Source: Toxoplasma gondii ME49
Lineage: Eukaryota > Apicomplexa > Conoidasida > Eucoccidiorida > Sarcocystidae
Direction: 5' to 3'
Assembly: GCF_000006565.2 (NCBI RefSeq)
Contig: NC_031479.1
Location: forward strand, 2,480,001-2,544,000
Length of the DNA: 64,000 bases
In this document: positions 52,789 through 63,631 of the stretch, one piece after another
How positions within the stretch are numbered: position 1 is the first letter of the stretch
Layout: every line of letters begins with the position of its first letter
Made by a program: the position numbers and the translations under genes
Notes under the pieces: model-generated
Seen by the model: the letters and a program-made list of their open reading frames with translations, nothing else
What the model was told of the DNA's origin: nothing
Database searches by the model: none

Positions 52789-55700
52789 TCAGTTCAACTG
52801 TATAGGTGCGTGCTCTAGTCGGGCGTCTGCAACTTTTTGAGCATGCGTGCTTCTCGAGTTTTTGTCGCCGCTCTGATTCTTGGCGCTCGGCATGTTTCGT
52901 TCGCGCCCCTTGGCTCCTTGGCTACACTCGAAGATTGTAACGACATCCATGTCTTCGCCTCCCGCTTTCGCTTTGGCCTGTCGCGTTTCTGAGCTACTGG
53001 GGCTCGCCTGCCAGGCAACAGCCGTGCGGTTCCGAGGAAGGAGGGTGAAACCGAGTTTTCATTTTCCTGCCGCTCTGTCACCCTGGCGAGTGCGAGACAG
53101 CCTCGCATTTGGAAGTCGAGACGGAGAAGGGGAAGCAGCAGAACGAGGAGACGAACTTACATGGTTTGCGCAAAGAAGCTGGATCAAATGCCGTACCTTT
53201 GCATCGCGCTCTGTACACCCTGCGATGAGTTGCTGCGAAGAAAAGGAAACGATGAAGTCGAACGCAGCGGGTGCAGTACCTAAGGAAGCCGTGGGCGCGG
53301 GAGAAAGATATTTCCGTTGCGCTCGGAGCTTGTGTTCTGTGTTGCAAAGACCTCTACGGAAAAGCGCCTGATTTCTGCGACTTCCTCTCAACTGAACCGA
53401 AGACGCGGGCTCGACGTTTTTCTGAGACTTTTGAACCGACAACACAAGGAAGCCTCCGAAATCCTCTGAGATGTCCAGAGTTTCCCGACTGCTCCAGACG
53501 CCTCAAAACAAAGACAGACAAGAAGGAGAAACTAACTTCTACAAGTTGCTGCAGTTTGGCTTGGACAGGAAGAAGACTCGGCGCACGGTGCCCTAGCTCT
53601 CGCTGCATGCTGTGAAGGAGTTTCTTCGCGTTTTTCTCCACGACGTTGACCGACACCTAGAAGGCACAAACAACCGGGGACCAGAGACTCACAAAAGGAT
53701 CCCGAGGAAGTCGGGGAGAAAACCTTCCGTCTGTGGATCACTTCACACAACCATCTGAACAGACTTGCGAAAACATGTCGCGACAGATGAAGCTTTCTGC
53801 TCCTGTGGAGAAACGCTGGCGTCCCCCTTATTTCATTTCTGCCTGTGAGCAAGGTTCAGCTCTCTCTGAGGCTCCCGTCCGGTTCCCTGACTCACTGGGG
53901 ACTGAATCGCGCGAGACACAGCTTCTGCCTGCTTCCTATCCAAGTCTCCGTTCGCTCGACTCTCCGCTTCTTCCGCGGCTTCCCTCCGCGACTTGTTCCG
54001 CGCGCTCTGCTCTCTCTCGTCCTTGCCTCTCTCCCAGCGCGGGCGTCGAGGAGAGACAGATCGTCGGTCGACTGAGTTGCTTCCGTCCAGCCGACAGACG
54101 AGCTGATCAGGGCGCCGCAATGATCAAAGGCAGACAGCCAGATAAGCCAAAAACATTCAAAGCGCTGAAACGTCTTGGGGTCGTGTCTGCAGCCACCAAG
54201 AGACAGAAAACGCCTCCCTTAGATGGCCGCAGCAGCCGTGACATCCCTGTGTGGAGATCTCCACTATAAACATAAATACGAAGGATACATCCTTGTATAT
54301 AGTTACGAACATGAAGTCAAAAGAAGAGCAAAAACGTATAAATATGTTTTAAGAGATGCATGTGTACACTTTAAGCGGAAGTGTACCCATACACAAACAT
54401 TTCCGGAAAGCTCCTGTACGTTTGGATGCATGCGTCCTCTCGAAATGTCCTCTGCTTAGTGAACAAGAAGTCTTCTGCACTCTTTCCGTGGAACTGAAAC
54501 ACCCTTCTGAAACTCACCTGCGTCAAGTTCCTCTTGGAAAACAACAAGAGCACAACCAGCATCTGCTTGTTACACAGTGCCTTACCTCCGTCCTTCCTCG
54601 ATGCGGACTGTGCTTTGCCTTCTCGTCAGAGAGGAAAGGTCGGCGTCCAGAGCGGCTCGCGGCTCTCGGTCCGGCTGTCTGCCTCAAAACAGTGGTCCTC
54701 CGGTTTCTTCTCTCCGTTTGCTTTAGAGACTCCAGAGTCTCCTCGCACCTGCCGCCTCGTTTTTCTCCTCCCTGTTCGTGGATGGCTCGTGCCGTTGTTA
54801 TGGCGCTGCCTAAGCGTCGCGGAATGAAGCACAGCTGAGACTGGACCGGCGGGTGGGTCGTCTTTTGCATGCAATGCGTTCTCTCGCGCGGTGCAGTCGA
54901 CGAGGAAACAGCCGCGTTCTTCGACGCTTCTTCCGAACCTTTCCCGGCATCGCCTTCTCCATTTCGGAGGAAATGAAAGGCTTCCGGCGCGCGAGCAGAA
55001 GCGCGTTTTCCTGTCTCGGAGCGACAGGGACCCTCCTTCTCTCTTGTGTCTTTGTGACAACATCTGGACTCCCGAGTCGATGGTGGCACCGCCTTCTTCT
55101 CTGCTCTCTCCCTCTCTTCGTCGGGAACGCGAGTCTCCTCCTCTCTCCTGACCTCGTCCCTTGACGACGCGGACCTGAGCCTCGCCTCTCGTTTGTATGA
55201 GTCTAGGAATGCCTTGTCGCTTCCGGGAAGCGGCGCCGAGTAGTTCCCGCATCCGTTTGCATCCTCTTGGTCATACACAAATTCTGTCTGAACCCACGCA
55301 CTGTCTTCTCGCTCGTGTGCTGTCGCCGCTGCCTCACCTGTCGGACTTCGTCGCTGTCTCCGTCTCTCTGGACAGACCGAAGGTGTCTGGTCTCGTCCGC
55401 GAGAATCGGGCGTCTCTTGTCTTTTGCGGGTCCCAGAGACGTCTGCATGTTCTTGGTCTTTCTTTTCACGAAGCGTTCTTTCCCTCTCTCGGCGCCGGAC
55501 AGTTTCTTCTCTCTCGGCCTTTGCACATGCATCGCGGATCTCGCGAGCGCGCGTTCGAGGGACGACGCGACCTTTGAATTTCAAGTCCTGTTCGTATTGT
55601 TCTCGACGCGCTCGAGGACTGCAGGCGAAGCACCCGTCTAAGCGCGTGGAGTACACGTAGGCGGATGTGGACGCCGGCGAAGGCGGTGCTGCAGACACTC

Positions 55701-58700
55701 GAGAGGCAGCAGAGGCGCGAGAGGAAGGATTCTCAGACGAGGCAGGAGGAGGAATTTTGAATGTGAGGTTCCTATGGTGGAACAGGTCGAGTCGACTCTG
55801 CGACGCCGAGGCAGCTCGCGCCTCTCTTTGGCGTCGAGGGTGACATGCGTGATGACAGTGAAGATGTGGAGAAGAGTCACTGAAACAGAAGGCTTCTTCA
55901 GGAACTGGTGAAACGCGTTCGCGCCTTGCGTCGGGACTCCAGCCTTCCCGCGACCGGTGTGTGCTGTTCCCTCCCCTGTCTCTGTCTCTCTCCCCCTGCG
56001 TCCATGCGTTCTCTGCGTCTCTTCGCGCTCGACAACACTGTCTCTCTCTTCGTGGCGAGAGCGAAGCGCGAGGTGGACGAGAGCTCCCAACAGAGACAGA
56101 CGCGCAAGGAGGAAGGGACTGCGTTCGACCTGCCGGTTTCGCGTTTTTTCGTCTTTCTTCTCTCGGCAGCTCAGAGCCGACGCCGGAGGCCGAGGGCGGA
56201 GGAGAGAGAGACGCAGGGTGGGTGTACGACGCAGACCGAGGACCTGTCTTCCGCGCACCGTTTCGAGAGACAGTTCTCGTCTTTACAGGTGGAGACGAAG
56301 AACGACTCTGAGACGCCAAGAGCCGTCGGCCGTCCTTCGTCTCGCATCTCTGCGCAGAACAGCGCAGCACGGTCCCCCGACTGGTCGCAGGGTGGCACCG
56401 AGGAGACAGAGGAGCCTTGTTCGACAACGCAAGCATGCAGGAAGGAGAGACAGACGGAGGCGACGGGCGAAGACGAGAAGCGGTACTGGAAGTTGGGGAA
56501 AAGCGAGAGGGAGAAAGGCAGTCAGCGATGGTTCTCGGAGTTCTTGTGTGGCTAGGCTGCAAATTCTCGCAGGCGTGCCGAGTCTGAAGCAGCGCGGTCC
56601 AGGAGAAAGGCGAGAAGAAACCATCTTGGCGAGAGCGGGGGCGGAGCGAGAAGACGAGTCGTCAAGTGAATGCGTGGAGAAGAGAGGCATGGTCGAGAAG
56701 AGAGACACGGACGAAGAGAGAGACGCAGAGAGCTCTTCTGCTGGCTCTAGCTCGCCACAGGAACAGTGGGCATGGCCATGAAGCGCGAGGGCCAAGAGAA
56801 AGACTGTGAGGACGTTGAGAGACGAGAGAGAAAAAGGAGAGACAGGAAGAAAGGAGAAACACAACAGAGAGAGGGAAATGAGTGACAGGAGGAAATCGAT
56901 GGCGTTCTTCGTCGAGGGCATACCTGGAGTGAGTCTTCATCGCCGACGGCGGCACTGTGCATCGGGTGAAAGTTCTCCCCACTGAATTCTCTGGGAGTTC
57001 GCCACGCTAGGGCTCGCCTCAGAAGGGAGCGCAGACGAATCACTTCCAGTTGCAAATCTTTTTCTCTCACGAGACGCAGCGTTTCGCGTTCTCTGTCGTC
57101 TTCTTCCTGTCTCCCGTCTCCTCGTCTCTGCTGAGACCGTGGCGCGTTCTTCCTTGATCTACACGGAGATTCCGCGCCTCGTCTTTTCGTTCTCTCTGCG
57201 TCTCTCTCTCCTGAGCCTCCTCCCTCCCATTTTTGTTGTCGCCTGACCGTGTCTTCTTCTCTCCTCTCTCTCCTCTTTCGCCTGTCTTCTCTCGCTCTGG
57301 CTGCTGCCGGAGCTCTCTCGCCTTTGCCTGTGTCTCCAGGCTCCGGCTCTCGTCGGCCTTCACTGTCTACCTGCGTCTCCGTTTCCGCTGGCTCCTCAAC
57401 AGCTCCGAGGGAGGTTGCCTGCTGGGCGAAACGCTCTGAAGGCGAGAGCCAGGCGTCTTCGTCCGGCGTTCCGAGGATCGCTTTTGGATTGCAAATTTCA
57501 GACAGAACAGGGACTGCAAGCGCAGCTTCTTGACCTCTAGTTCCTGAAAGCGTGAGCAGCGCAACGTGACGCCTATTCCTTCGCTGCTCGTCTGCGCGTG
57601 GATGTTCCCCCGGGAGGAACGCGGCGTTCTCGGCGGGAGCGAACGAGCCTCGAGACGAGGGGGAAGCGGAAGGCGACGAATGAGGAGAGGGTGAAGCAGC
57701 GTTCGAAGGAAGAGCTCCGTGACCTTGAAGGCGACGCGACGGCACGCAGGCGCATCCACGCATGCAGACGCTTCGACTCTCTTTCTCGTGGACACCGAGT
57801 GGACTTGGGTCTCCCTTTTCGTTCCGGTTTTTCTCTGCAAACGCGAGGTCCGGCCGAACCTCCGCGACAGTTGGCGACTTGTCTCTCCGGTCCCGGTCGA
57901 GTTCTGTCGCCTCATGTCCGCTGTCCTGTCGCCTTCCCTTGCACCGTTTTGACTTTCGTTCTGAACCTTCTTTTTCGCCTTCAGAATCTTCGCCGCACTT
58001 GGCTTTCTCTGATTTCGCTGCCGCGAAGTTCGGACGCGTTCGTTCGCTTCCCCGAGGAAAGGAAATGCGTTTGACGAGCTCCCCCCGAGTTCGTTCGGAA
58101 GAAGGCCTTGAGAGGAAGACTCTCACTCGGCCTCTCTCCGCGGTTTGCCCCGCTGCGTTCTTTTCTGTGCTCGACCCAACAGAGTTTTGAACGCCTCTGC
58201 CTTCTCGTTCTTTCTCGCCGCCTCGGCTTTTCTCTCGTACGCGCTTTTGCTCAGTCTGATCAGAAACGCCAGCGCCTGTGTGCAGAGGTCGACGTCCAGA
58301 GAAGTAGAAAACGGCAGAGGAGGAAGGGGAAGCCGAGGAAGTATGGCCAGCAGTCCGCGTCGACCGCCCGCTTCTGGCGAGGAGCGTTGCCCGCTGGCGC
58401 GCTGAAGAAACGTCCGTCTGTGAAGCGAGGCGCGCCGGAGGCCGACAGGAGACACCTTGGAAACTTGTTGCTTTCGAGGCGCTGGGCATTCTTCCACCCT
58501 CGATGGTCTGTTCGTCGGCTCTCACACGGAAGCTGCTGCTCCACCGACGCGGCCTCCATCGGGGTCTCAGCAGGGAACGAGAGCCAGCAGAGGAAGAAGA
58601 AGAGGAGGAGGAGGAAGAAGAAGAAGAGGAAGAGGAAGAAGAAGAGGAAGAAGAAGAGGAGGAAGAAGAGGAAGGAAACGCTGCTTCGCTTGTCTCTCGC

Positions 58701-61700
58701 TTTTCGTTGGTTTTTTCGTTTTCGTGTCGAGAACGCGACAAGAACAAGTCGGTCTTCGGAGAAGAAGGACGAAGAACGGCTGTCGGCAGGAGAAGAGACA
58801 ACGCGTCTCCCTCTTCACTGACAGCAACTGCGTTGAACGATGTTGAAGCTGAAGAAGAAGAAAAGGAAGTTGCTGGACGTCCCCTCAGCTGACTGAAGGG
58901 TCGCGAGTGAGCAGAGAGAGGATTCATCCAAGACGCAGGGACTGTATGCGTGGTCTCGGAGAAAAAGCGCGACACAAGAGAACCATTTCTCCCATCTTCC
59001 AATAGTTCTTTGTCGTCTGTAGCATACGAATTCGTCGATCCCCGTGCTGGAATCGAACGCGATGAGGAACGCGAGAGGCAGTGAGTAGACACGAGACCTC
59101 TTTCTTCCTCCGAAGATGCCTGTCTTTCGTTCACAGTCGCCATATGCTGGTTTTCCTCATCTTCCCGTCTCTCGGTGTCTCCTGTGTGTGTCGACTCTCT
59201 CTCCCGTTGGTGTCTCCCCTGTTCTCCACTCGCAGTTTCCTTTTTCTTGTTCTCCTCTCTCTCGTTCTCTTCTCCCTCGTTTTCATCCCTCTCGTTCTCT
59301 TCTCCCTCGTTTTCATCCCTCTCGTTCTCTTCTCCCTCGTTTTCATCCCTCTCGTTCTCTTCTCCACCACTCCGTTCTCTCGCTTTCTCTCTTCTCTCGT
59401 GTCTCGCTTCTCGGTCTTGCCCAGCTGCTTCTCGTCTGTCCTTTTCTTCTGCAGGTTCTGAGGCTTCGTCAGCGCTCGGCGCGTTGCGGAGGCCTTTGGC
59501 TTCCGGCGCCATGGCTTCGGGGCTCGGCTTTTGTCCTCGCTTCTTCTTTCGGCTCTCTGCAGATCTGCCGTTGCTCCCTGCATGCAGCCAGCCGAGAGCT
59601 CGCGACAGGCGTTCGAGTTCGCAGCGTCTGTGCGTCGCTTCACCTGCGGTCTTCGCCCGGTGTGTGCGTTCCTTTCTCTCCCGCCAGAGGTCTTGTCGCG
59701 GCCCCAGAGATTCCAAAAGAGAGGAAGGAAACTGCAGAGGCTCGCATCGCGGTCCATGCAGAGACCCGCGCTGGAGGGCATCCAACAACTCCACAGCGGT
59801 GTATGGACATCTGGTCAGCGACGGCAGGACAGCCAGCGCGAACGTCTTGGAATGCATAGACACCAGATTCTGCAGAAGCTGCACTGGAGGCGGACGCGAG
59901 CAACGGACGCCCAGAGGAGCTGCAGCGGTCGAAGGTTGCGCAGAAACGGAACGGGAGGCCGCAGAGGAAGAGGCGTTCGCGCACTGCGGAGAGTGAAGGT
60001 AGACCGAAGACGTGATGGACTGTGGAGAGGACAGAGGCAGTTGGAGGAACTCGAGCAGCAGAGAGACGAGACGCTTAGAGCCTTCAACTGAAGAAGGGGA
60101 CTGCTCAGAACTGAGTGGCGTTTGAGGCGACTCTAAGTCTTCTCCTTCCACTGGGGAGATGAGATGGAGAAGTGAGAGTGTAGGTGACGGGCCGGCAGAC
60201 GCGGAGACAGAAAGGACTTGGACTCGTACTGCCCTGGGAGCAAAGCGAAAGCAAACGCAAGCGAAACGCAGAGGTCAACCAGGATGGCTTCGACAAAATC
60301 CCGATGCATGCAGTTCAGCTTCTTCGTCGTCAGCGTGTGGAGGGCGTCCGAGTGGGGACTGCCGCTCTCTCGTTCGCACTTGCGACTCTTGTGCATTCGG
60401 CGAAGCAGACAAGTGAGAGAGGGGCCGTCTGTAGAAACAGAATAGTTCCTAAGGCATTAAAGGGGATGTGAGCCTAACTCTGTACACGAGGAAGAAATCA
60501 ATTTGTGTGCATTTTCATTCCAAGAGCTCGTCCAAGTGTATCGGCCTTCTGTTCATCGCCGTTGCCTTCGACTGTGGCGTCATTCTTCTTCGCACCTGTA
60601 TCTTTACTTTTCTGCTTTTTTTCGGAGACCGGAAAAGCGGCTCTGCTTCTCTGTCTACGCAAATGTGAACTCACAAGAGACTCGGCGCTTCTGTCTCTTC
60701 TGCGTATTTCCTTCCTCTCCGTGGCTTCGCCTCCGACCCCGCTTTCTTTTCCTCTTCGTTTGGACGACCGGAGGAAAGGCTGGACAGACGCAGCTCCTTC
60801 AACTTGGCTTTCGCGCGACTCAAAACCATTTTCACTTCTCCCACCGTGCTCACGGAGACAGTGCGGAGACAGCGCGACACAACGTCGTCTGGGGTGCAAG
60901 AGGCCGAAGAAGGCGGTGAAGAAGTCTTGGAAGACAAAAATTGAGCAAAGCAGGCGAAACAAGGGGGAGAAGTGGAGGGAGCAGCTGCCGGCGGAGAAGA
61001 CGAGAGGAGGTCGACAGTCGCGTCGTCCGAGACAAAGAAGACAGAGAGACCGAGCAGGAAGGAGAGAGGCTCGCCGTCACTGTCTGTGTCCATCTCTAGG
61101 AGGCGCGTTAAAAGTTTTTCAGCGAGGCCTGCGTCTGCCACTTGGAGAGTTCCGGTTTCGCTTTCCCCCTTCCTGCTTCCTTCCAGTTGAGTTCTTTGCG
61201 TCCAGTTTCCTCGTCTCCCAAGGACAGAAGGAGGCCGCGACAACTGGAGACCAAAGTGAGAGGAAGCCGCAGGTGAAGGGGAGGAGCAAGATGAACTTCG
61301 ACTCTCCTCTGTCACCTTTCTCTGTTCTTCTCCCTGCCTCTCTGTACCGTCTCGGCCGTCCAGGAGAAACACCGTCGCATGCTGGCGATCCGTCACTAGC
61401 CAGTCGGCGACTCTCTCTATAAAAGAGCCTTTTTCGCCCCCATCTCCTCCCGTCTTTACTGTTTCTCCTTCGTCTCCTTTGCTTCTCACTTCTCCTTCTT
61501 CTCCTCTCTCTCTCTCTATCCGATTTATGGCTTGCTTTCTCTCCTTCTTCCACTCCTCTCTCCAAGAGAAGCCTTCGACTGCAGAGCAGACGCGCCAGGA
61601 CTTGAGTAATTTCTGCTCTTCTTTTCGCGGCAACTCCGGGCCTGTCTCCTTCCTGTGTCCTCCATCCTTCTCTTCTCTGTGCTTCGCGCCTCTCTGCTGA

Positions 61701-63631
61701 TGTTCACCTGAGTCTCCGCATTCCTCTGTGGCGGACTCTCTCTCCTTCTCTCGGCCGCCAGCAACGTCCACCAGGTGTACGTACACCCGGCGGCGGTGTC
61801 GCGGAGAGAAGCCTGGGGAAGCCGGTTGACAGAGACGGATGTTTAGGAGCGAAGCAGACAGGGAAGGCGAAGAAGGCTCGTCTTTAGAAGGGTCGCAGCT
61901 GCTCGAGAGAAACGCAAAGATCGAAGGCGAAGAGGAGACGGGGAATACACAAGCCGCGGAAGAAGGAGGAGCTACGATGGTGGCTTCCGCATGCCTGGTC
62001 TCTGGCGCACAGGTCGTCGGGTGTATGTACACGTGGCTCTCGAAGAAGCCGAGGCGGGAAAGCGAAGGCAGCGGGAAGGCTTCGACGATAGACGACGACG
62101 GAGGAGAGCAGGAAGAGTCGTGGAACGCGTTAAAGTATCTCTCAGCCGCCACAAGAGAAGACAGATTCCTTCCGTTCGCACTCTCTGTCTCTCGAAAAAC
62201 GCCTTCACTGCTGTCTGCCGCGCGGCGAGGAAGCACCGGGAGGTCCTGAGACAGCGGACTCGACGGAAAAGACGATGGGGGGGACGCCGAGGGTCGCTGC
62301 GACGAGTGCTCCAATTTGGCAGCTGCATGCGCCGCTTTCGTCCTCTCTCTGCTTCTCTGTTCTCTTTTTTCTTTCGCAGCGTGAGGAGAAGCAAGACGCA
62401 GAGACGACGAGGCGAACGGAGACGCATGGAACCGCTGCCGACTCTGTTGTCCGCCGTGACAAAACGAAGAAGGGTGGAAGGGAGAAAAACACGACGGAGG
62501 AGGAGAAGAGGTACTTCGATGAACATCAAGAGAGACAAATGGGAGCGTCGGCAAAGAAGGGAGTTTCGTCGGAATCCGATCGCGGATCGAAGAAGAGAAA
62601 CATGCGTGACGCGTAGCTTCCTCGTTTGTTGCCTGAGAGAGGAGGGCTGTTCGGGTGTCTCTCCTGCTGATGATGTGAGCGTCTTCTTGTTGCTTCCTCT
62701 GTTGCTCCTTCGATTTTTTTCGTCTCCTGTTTTCTCGTCTCTCCTCGCCTTCGAGTCGACCGCCACACAGTGCGGAGGCGTCTGTTCTCCTTCTGCGCTT
62801 TTCCTCATCTCGTCTCTCTCCCTCGTCTCCCATCCCCATTGCCCGCCTGTCTCTCCTTCGGCGGCCTCTGGAAAGGCATGAAGGTGTGTCTGAAGAACCT
62901 GAAGGAGACGCATGCAGAGAGAATGAGTCCGCCAACGGCCTGCGAGCCGAGTGGCTGAGAGAGATACATTCTTTCTCCGCCGAAAGAGGCTCTTCGTGGA
63001 TCCTCGTTCTGCGCGTCCGATGTTTCTCATCAGTCGAGGAAGAAGACAGAGAAGCCGCAGACAGAGAGGAGGAAGAAGACAGCGAGTGAGGGAAGAGAGA
63101 GGAAGAAACTGGTTTCGTTCTTTTCTGCGCCAGGCGTCTCGAATGTGAATGTTCTTCTTGGGAATCTCTGCCCCTTTCATTGCGTTCTCTCTCTCTGGAA
63201 CAAGGCAAGAAATAAAACTTGCTTCTGCGAGCAGACAGGTCCGGCTGTTCCGTCGTCCTGATATCGGCCTTCGAGTTGCTGTTTTCGTTTCCTCTCTCGC
63301 CTCCCTTCTCTCGATTTCCTTCATTGCCTGCCTCAGACTCTTCCGTGCTGCACAGAGGGTCTTCGATGCAGCTCTCTGTCGAGGAAGACGAGGCGGAGAT
63401 GCCTGAGCGTCGGTCGAAGTCTCTTCCTTCCCGCGTTTTTCTTGACGTCTTTCTGCGGTCGCCACGACTGAGAAATGAGGCCTTGGATGGTGAGTGAAAC
63501 AGACGCTTTCCGGACTCTTTTCTCGGCGTCCGTTCGGAAGAAAACGAGGAAGAAGACTCGCTGACGCGTCTTCTCCGACGAGGGCGGCGACGCAGGCGAG
63601 TCGACCACTGGAACGAAGAAGGCGCCTCCAT
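52789..63631 (-). CDS. Very large low-complexity protein with a degenerate kinesin-like motor domain
   Basis: Model: 63631-60675, 60428-60280 (tentative), 60150-56924, 56556-54586, 53656-53543, 53232-53161, 53007-52789 (TGA); 8709 nt, 2902 residues, phases consistent. The ATG has good context (GCCATGG). Segments fall in kinesin motor order: RRVYVHLVDV (614-623) as a first strand; SFIERVADWL then ATVFLLDGRDG (736-762), where kinesins have the ATVFAYGQTGSGKT P-loop; LGLSVFFVSDDATVDLLSS (about 860-878), matching the VSYLEIYNE..DLL strand; VSRCLRTVSVSTVGEVKMVL (918-937), matching the VxSxEEV..LL helix; and, in the third exon, VQLLQNLVSMHSKTFALAVL (59884-59825), matching LTRLLQDSLGGNSKT. The GKT and DxxG catalytic residues are not visible. 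The rest is Ser/Arg/Glu low complexity with poly-Ser and a decapeptide repeat; charged helices lie near 57.0 and 55.5 kb. The last exon is uncertain: a second acceptor and frame (stop at 52815-52817) is possible. Coding status is likely; the kinesin relation is inferred. Confidence 0.6.
58595..58680 (-). repeat. Poly-serine-coding GAA/GAG tract
   Basis: A purine-rich plus strand of GAGGAAGAA units reads on the minus strand as about 30 consecutive serines within the kinesin-like protein. Confidence 0.9.
59261..59365 (-). repeat. Perfect 30-bp tandem repeat, 3.5 copies, in coding sequence
   Basis: Units start at 59261, 59291, 59321 and 59351 (the last partial). Read on the minus strand they encode the decapeptide NERDENEGEE in tandem, inside a longer acidic stretch of the kinesin-like protein. 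The unit length is a multiple of three, so copy-number change would keep the frame. Confidence 0.95.

Follow-up and report, generated by a model that had tools for sequence, protein, structure and literature searches.

A gene on the minus strand of our window, a stretch of 64,000 nucleotides from Toxoplasma gondii ME49 (positions 2,480,001–2,544,000 of NC_031479.1), codes for a long, mostly low-complexity protein. Its main conserved part, at residues ~525-1154 and swollen by inserts, is probably a kinesin-fold pseudo-motor. The predicted fold and the absence of the kinesin nucleotide signatures support the original prediction for this DNA, which was that of a non-catalytic or highly divergent kinesin. 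Searches of the open-licence literature on pseudokinesins and on the locus tags of the relatives yielded no report of the protein.

Two relatives were found: Hammondia hammondi HHA_452610 (2313 residues), with 81% identity across the part used for the search, and Besnoitia besnoiti BESB_073430, with 34% identity. A structure prediction had been proposed as a check, and structure searches with a Hammondia and a Besnoitia model matched the kinesin fold on these low-confidence models (predicted local distance difference test, pLDDT, 35-37). The matched range starts at alpha1 in both; it extends to about beta6/beta7 in one model, the first, and to beta8 in the second, with beta1 and alpha6 outside it. 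The predictions follow the kinesin order of alpha1, beta3, alpha2, beta4-beta5, alpha3, beta6, beta7 (Besnoitia model only), alpha4, alpha5 and beta8. Matches were read from the best 50 listed, and the absence of a family there, such as the myosins, does not count against that family. These searches lift kinesin likeness above chance, and we regard a kinesin fold as very probable.

The original prediction had picked out five segments resembling kinesin motor landmarks, in the right order across two exons. All five sit as described: RRVYVHLVDV at residues 614-623, SFIERVADWLVTDRQHATVFLLDGRDG at 736-762, LSFLLGLSVFFVSD..ATVDLLS at 856-877, VVSRCLRTVSVS..GEVKMVLSRAKAKL at 917-951, and PPVQLLQNLVSMHSKTFALAVLPS..TAVELLDALQRG in the next exon (window 59890-59747). 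Beyond the five, further elements can be placed in kinesin order (alpha2, beta6, the beta7/switch II position, alpha4, the loop 12 position and alpha6). The beta4-beta5 stretch reads LGLSVFFVSD..VDLL against VSYLEIYNE..DLL in kinesin, the alpha5-beta8 stretch reads LLQNLVSMHSKTFALAVLPS against LLQDSLGGNSKTxMIxxISP, and TLSLLHLISPVEGE stands at beta7 and switch II where kinesin has LxLVDLAGSE. An early reading by eye, with SSRSH at MHSKTF and alpha4 at GEATHRRCELERLSRALGW, was dropped; the relatives and the profile alignment set beta6/beta7 directly 3' of the intron and alpha5/beta8 at LLQNLVSMHSKTFALAVLPS.

Sequence comparison taken by itself carries kinesin kinship only modestly beyond chance, as a suggestion and not as proof. 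PF00225 was the only match of the hand-trimmed Besnoitia sequence (E 0.08, 12.3 bits, residues 84-166 on profile positions 97-181), the hand-trimmed window sequence had no Pfam match, and no sequence tried reached the curated PF00225 cut-off of 29.3 bits. Searching PDB sequences with the motor half of exon 1 (phmmer) gave 0 matches at E<=10. A kinesin profile of our own combined 39 kinesin exon pieces with five kinesins, of which four are PDB chains and one is locus L001 of the same genome. The pieces came from a PF00225 scan of the genome (65.28 Mb, 1959 contigs), in which 40 of the 60 exon matches were fetched and one, L045, was left out for its low score of 6.5 bits. In a search of 6 sequences with this profile, the Besnoitia domain had an E value of 3.1e-6 when trimmed and 0.0022 when uncut, the Hammondia domain 5.9e-4 and 0.032, and the window domain 1.7e-3 and 0.021. 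The uncut Besnoitia match covers alpha2-beta5, as expected. Scores of the hand-trimmed sequences exceeded those of all shuffles that HMMER returned (958, 975 and 962 of 2000 each for Besnoitia, Hammondia and the window).

Several results weigh against the pseudo-motor. The PF00225 search proposed with the original prediction found nothing in the two intact exons, in which Pfam reports no family at all, or in the two whole relatives. When left uncut, the window and Hammondia sequences match our profile best with RRVYVHLVDVAGG aligned to switch II, which breaks the proposed order. When trimming followed a single kinesin-blind rule, 35, 64 and 20 of 2000 shuffles reached the scores of Besnoitia, Hammondia and the window, and a Besnoitia C-terminal control scored as high as the Besnoitia motor. 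With hhalign, the uncut alignment matched over the alpha2-beta5 stretch at a probability of 2.0% (P 0.024), the 5-row profile gave 0.8% (P 0.07) and global mode P 0.6; the hand-trimmed alignment matched over 183 columns with P 0.0037, at a probability of just 8.8%. As for the models, their mean pLDDT is 36.5 and 35.3 with a predicted template modelling score of 0.35, both were built from the same two sequences and hence are not independent, and the structure-search tool cautions that low-confidence models may yield meaningless matches. The Hammondia model lacks beta7, has a strand at the alpha6 position and leaves the first three candidate strands unfolded.

The domain could be some other alpha/beta domain with a chance order of strands and helices, its low-confidence model drawn to the well-populated kinesin fold. 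The low pLDDT, the want of a significant untrimmed match, the failure of rule-based trimming and the out-of-order profile match in two of three species all favour this explanation, which we judge improbable. Because of the out-of-order match and the alpha6 strand, we set both the likelihood of the fold and our overall confidence lower, and this alternative higher. The kinesin-fold pseudo-motor remains our preferred reading.

If the fold is that of a kinesin, the domain is very unlikely to bind and hydrolyse MgATP in the canonical way, because it has none of the Walker A, switch I and switch II signatures. The original prediction was right that the P-loop is lost: LLDGRDGTERQ follows ATVF, with no lysine and no GxxxxGK[S/T]. 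In place of GQTxxGK[S/T], the three species have DGRDGTERQ, DGREGTERQ and DGRDRDTGL. At the aligned switch I position LSSLSSGRP retains only the SS of NxxSSRSH, and HLISPVEGE or HLVAPVAGE follows beta7 where switch II would read DLAGSE. Walker A is retained in L001 and in all 13 fetched same-genome pieces that span it (12 whole, and one that starts inside it with QTGAGKT); the other 26 of the 39 do not span it. One kinesin exon, L030 (G000:C11:684518-684964), has an odd Walker A, GGKGSGKT. We rejected RRVYVHLVDVAGG, to which HMMER assigned switch II in two of the three uncut sequences, since it precedes alpha1 and its DVAGG part is not retained in Besnoitia. Past residue 618 (window ~61757-61780), LVDVAGG resembles DLAG yet lies 5' of alpha1; Besnoitia has VEASSTG there. 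A divergent active motor with a non-canonical nucleotide site would share the fold, and nothing beyond the fold speaks for it. All three species lack GxxxxGK[S/T] past beta3, and at the switch positions they have neither SSRSH nor DxxG; such a motor is extremely improbable.

The three lost signatures, and the long variable inserts that separate the blocks of the domain, would also fit a relic, in which a domain that was once a kinesin motor has no function left and drifts within a disordered protein. Conservation runs against this. The three-species alignment consists of conserved blocks amid variable low-complexity sequence, mostly at residues 525-1154, where 260 of 610 aligned positions are identical to Besnoitia, compared with 114/403 before residue 525 and 177/647 after 1154. 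The motor part is thus better conserved than its flanks, and LGFFESHVYIHPT and KTFALAVLPS have the same letters in both relatives. At the P-loop site itself ATVFLLDGRD is the same in Besnoitia, with its last D changed to E in Hammondia, and this retention suggests that a non-catalytic role has been maintained rather than that the domain is decaying. We consider a relic highly unlikely.

A structural or docking function of the domain is somewhat favoured. As a static docking surface, it might hold on to microtubules or bind some other protein of the cytoskeleton, and the coil-like helix at the C-terminal end might bring two such heads together, much as in Vik1/Cik1 or VAB-8/KIF26. The microtubule cytoskeleton of Toxoplasma and its relatives is unusual, and one kinesin, KinesinA, is described as an early component of the Toxoplasma apical polar ring (PMC13387612). 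Microtubule binding by the domain is itself doubtful, the loop 12/alpha5 signature YRDSKLT being unrecognisable (SVYLHSPQC). In a rival reading, the domain descends from a kinesin, has kept its binding to microtubules and serves a true kinesin as a partner head without catalysis, in a Vik1/Cik1-like heterodimer. The predicted fold and the probable coiled coil agree with it, potential partners exist in the ~19 PF00225-matching loci of the genome (our own grouping of the 60 matches), and the motor homology domain of Cik1 and Vik1 is described as having a site for microtubules but none for ATP (PMC4338441). However, the unrecognisable YRDSKLT and the distance of ~880 residues between motor and coil-like helix, unlike a kinesin-14 neck, make such a partner head rather unlikely. 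Within the same genome scan, the exon match on the small contig G000:C718:274-528 scores the same as that at C2:198649-198903 and is probably a duplicate assembly fragment.

The predicted gene model is backed by both relatives. Exon 1 codes for the low-complexity N-terminal part (residues 1-~515) and the N-terminal half of the pseudo-motor; exon 2 codes for the C-terminal half, then ~880 charged and Ser-rich residues and the conserved coil-like helix. The exons join in phase (..APSLLAVRVQVLS..), and alignment by sequence to the relatives agrees: ..LL/AVRVQV.. corresponds to ..LLAVRVQVLS.. in Hammondia and ..LLCVRVQVVS.. in Besnoitia. As read from the sequence, the frame would also stay open if a middle exon near 60428-60281 were spliced in and the acceptor lay at 60150; we prefer the direct splice because its VRVQV stretch is present in the relatives' proteins. 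By eye, 60281-60428 could be an in-frame alternative exon between the motor exons, and it is missing from both relatives' proteins. Whereas the original prediction ran the gene from 63631 to 52789, only 63631-56924 is backed by relatives, since the Besnoitia tail past the coil has only chance-level matches within the window; nothing past exon 2, up to the proposed end at 52789, could be linked to the gene. Downstream, 3' of the pseudo-kinesin exons, lies a 712-residue open frame with charged stretches (54523-56661, minus strand), whose sole Pfam match is a phage family at 16.3 bits, below the cut-off of 27.

Each homologue search scored ~8000 word-sharing candidates after length and word filters, and among these filtered candidates nothing beyond the two relatives appeared, from which absence in Neospora, Cystoisospora, Eimeria or Plasmodium does not follow. 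One repeat search returned the query alone, overlooking even Hammondia, and another returned Besnoitia alone, its length range leaving out the 2313-residue Hammondia protein. A tblastn search of exon 1 in phages found no match. Two repeats lie in exon 2: an in-frame 30-base tandem repeat at 59259-59365 (3.6 perfect copies of the acidic unit EENERDENEG, with fewer copies in the Hammondia protein), and a serine-codon repeat at 58589-58674 that gives a run of 28 Ser, compared with a longest run of 7 in the corresponding Hammondia part.

Table 1. Features of the predicted gene and of its candidate kinesin-like elements, in window coordinates.
Feature	Position	Strand	Basis and remarks
Exon 1	60675..63631	-	Predicted model, backed by both relatives; ATG at 63631, donor TT|GTGAGT
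Candidate strand beta1, LGFFESHVYIHPT	62015..62053	-	By eye; no strand there in Hammondia model
Candidate early strand, RRVYVHLVDV, residues 614-623	61763..61792	-	By eye; put on kinesin switch II by HMMER in uncut window and Hammondia
Candidate F.FD.VF position, LKSWRVCSA	61580..61606	-	By eye
alpha1, SFIERVADWLVTDRQH (also cited as SFIERVADWLVTD)	61379..61426	-	Helix in both models; kinesin-matched range begins here
beta3, ATVFLLDG	61355..61378	-	Strand in both models
Walker A position, DGRDGTERQ, not GQTxxGK[S/T]	61334..61360	-	Sequence comparison
alpha2, DAGLAEKLLTRLLEM	61091..61135	-	Helix in both models; inside PF00225 match of trimmed Besnoitia
beta4, LSFLLGLSVFFVSD, kinesin VSYLEIYNE position	61025..61066	-	Both models and profile alignment
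beta5, ATVDLLS, kinesin vrDLL	61001..61021	-	Both models and profile alignment
VVSRCLRTVSVS, then alpha3, TVGEVKMVLSRAKAKLKELRLSS	60779..60883	-	Both models and sequence comparison
Switch I position, LSSLSSGRP, not NxxSSRSH	60761..60787	-	Profile alignment and sequence comparison
beta6, LLAVRVQVLSVS, split by intron	60203..60679	-	Strand in both models; AVRVQVLS
Intron, 441 bases	60234..60674	-	Predicted gene model; cuts strand beta6
Exon 2	56924..60233	-	Predicted model, backed by relatives; donor CAG|GTATG
beta7, PTLSLLHLIS, and switch II position, HLISPVEGE, not LVDLAGSE	60131..60184	-	Strand only in Besnoitia model; profile alignment
alpha4, EGSKRLVSLLLEFLQLPLSS	60026..60085	-	Helix in both models
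Loop 12 position, SVYLHSPQC, kinesin HVPYRDSKLT	59981..60007	-	Profile alignment of hand-trimmed set
alpha5 and beta8, PPVQLLQNLVSMH SKTFALAVLPS, kinesin LTRLLQDSLGGNSKTLMIVNISP	59819..59890	-	Helix and strand (Hammondia model), helix and two-residue strand (Besnoitia model); profile alignment
alpha6 position, TAVELLDALQRGSLHGPR	59747..59800	-	By eye; short helix in Besnoitia model, strand in Hammondia model
Helix-like stretch, probable coiled coil, DRERETLRLVREKDLQLEVIRLRSLLRRALAW	57002..57097	-	Coil judged from sequence; 26/40 aligned positions of the region identical to Besnoitia

Tentatively, the Toxoplasma, Hammondia and Besnoitia proteins may form a lineage-specific class of pseudo-kinesins, in which a head without nucleotide machinery is conserved as the static docking head of a microtubule-cytoskeleton scaffold. 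Dead kinesin heads as such are already known; what would be new is one eroded past PF00225 detection, riddled with inserts and seen in three coccidian species. Kinesin inventories compiled by scanning with PF00225 would miss a kinesin-fold protein that escapes such a scan. If the head is static, it would be a test case for the change of a motor into a structural part, and an argument for re-scanning 'hypothetical' coccidian proteins by structure prediction.

The order of secondary-structure elements is shared with the PF00225 kinesins of the same genome, such as L001, which scores 325 bits over profile positions 1-327 and has GQTGAGKS, whereas the window gene has no PF00225 match at E<=0.001 in the same genome search. 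KIF7, the Hedgehog-signalling kinesin, keeps its nucleotide site, unlike the window domain. VAB-8 and KIF26 are recognisable as kinesins by sequence. These non-motile kinesin-11 proteins (VAB-8, KIF26A and KIF26B) are described as having a motor domain without a functional P-loop (PMC12646758); the window domain differs in lacking all three nucleotide signatures and in being missed by PF00225 when uncut. A fungal 'pseudoKinesin-21' group is also named in PMC5076506. In Vik1 and Cik1, the partners of the yeast kinesin-14 Kar3, the motor homology domain is described as being without the elements for ATP binding and hydrolysis (PMC4338441). The window domain resembles them in its kinesin fold without an ATP site, as seen on low-confidence models, and here as well the heads probably pair by way of a coil; it differs in being broken by long inserts and in lying mid-protein, between low-complexity flanks and far from its coil.

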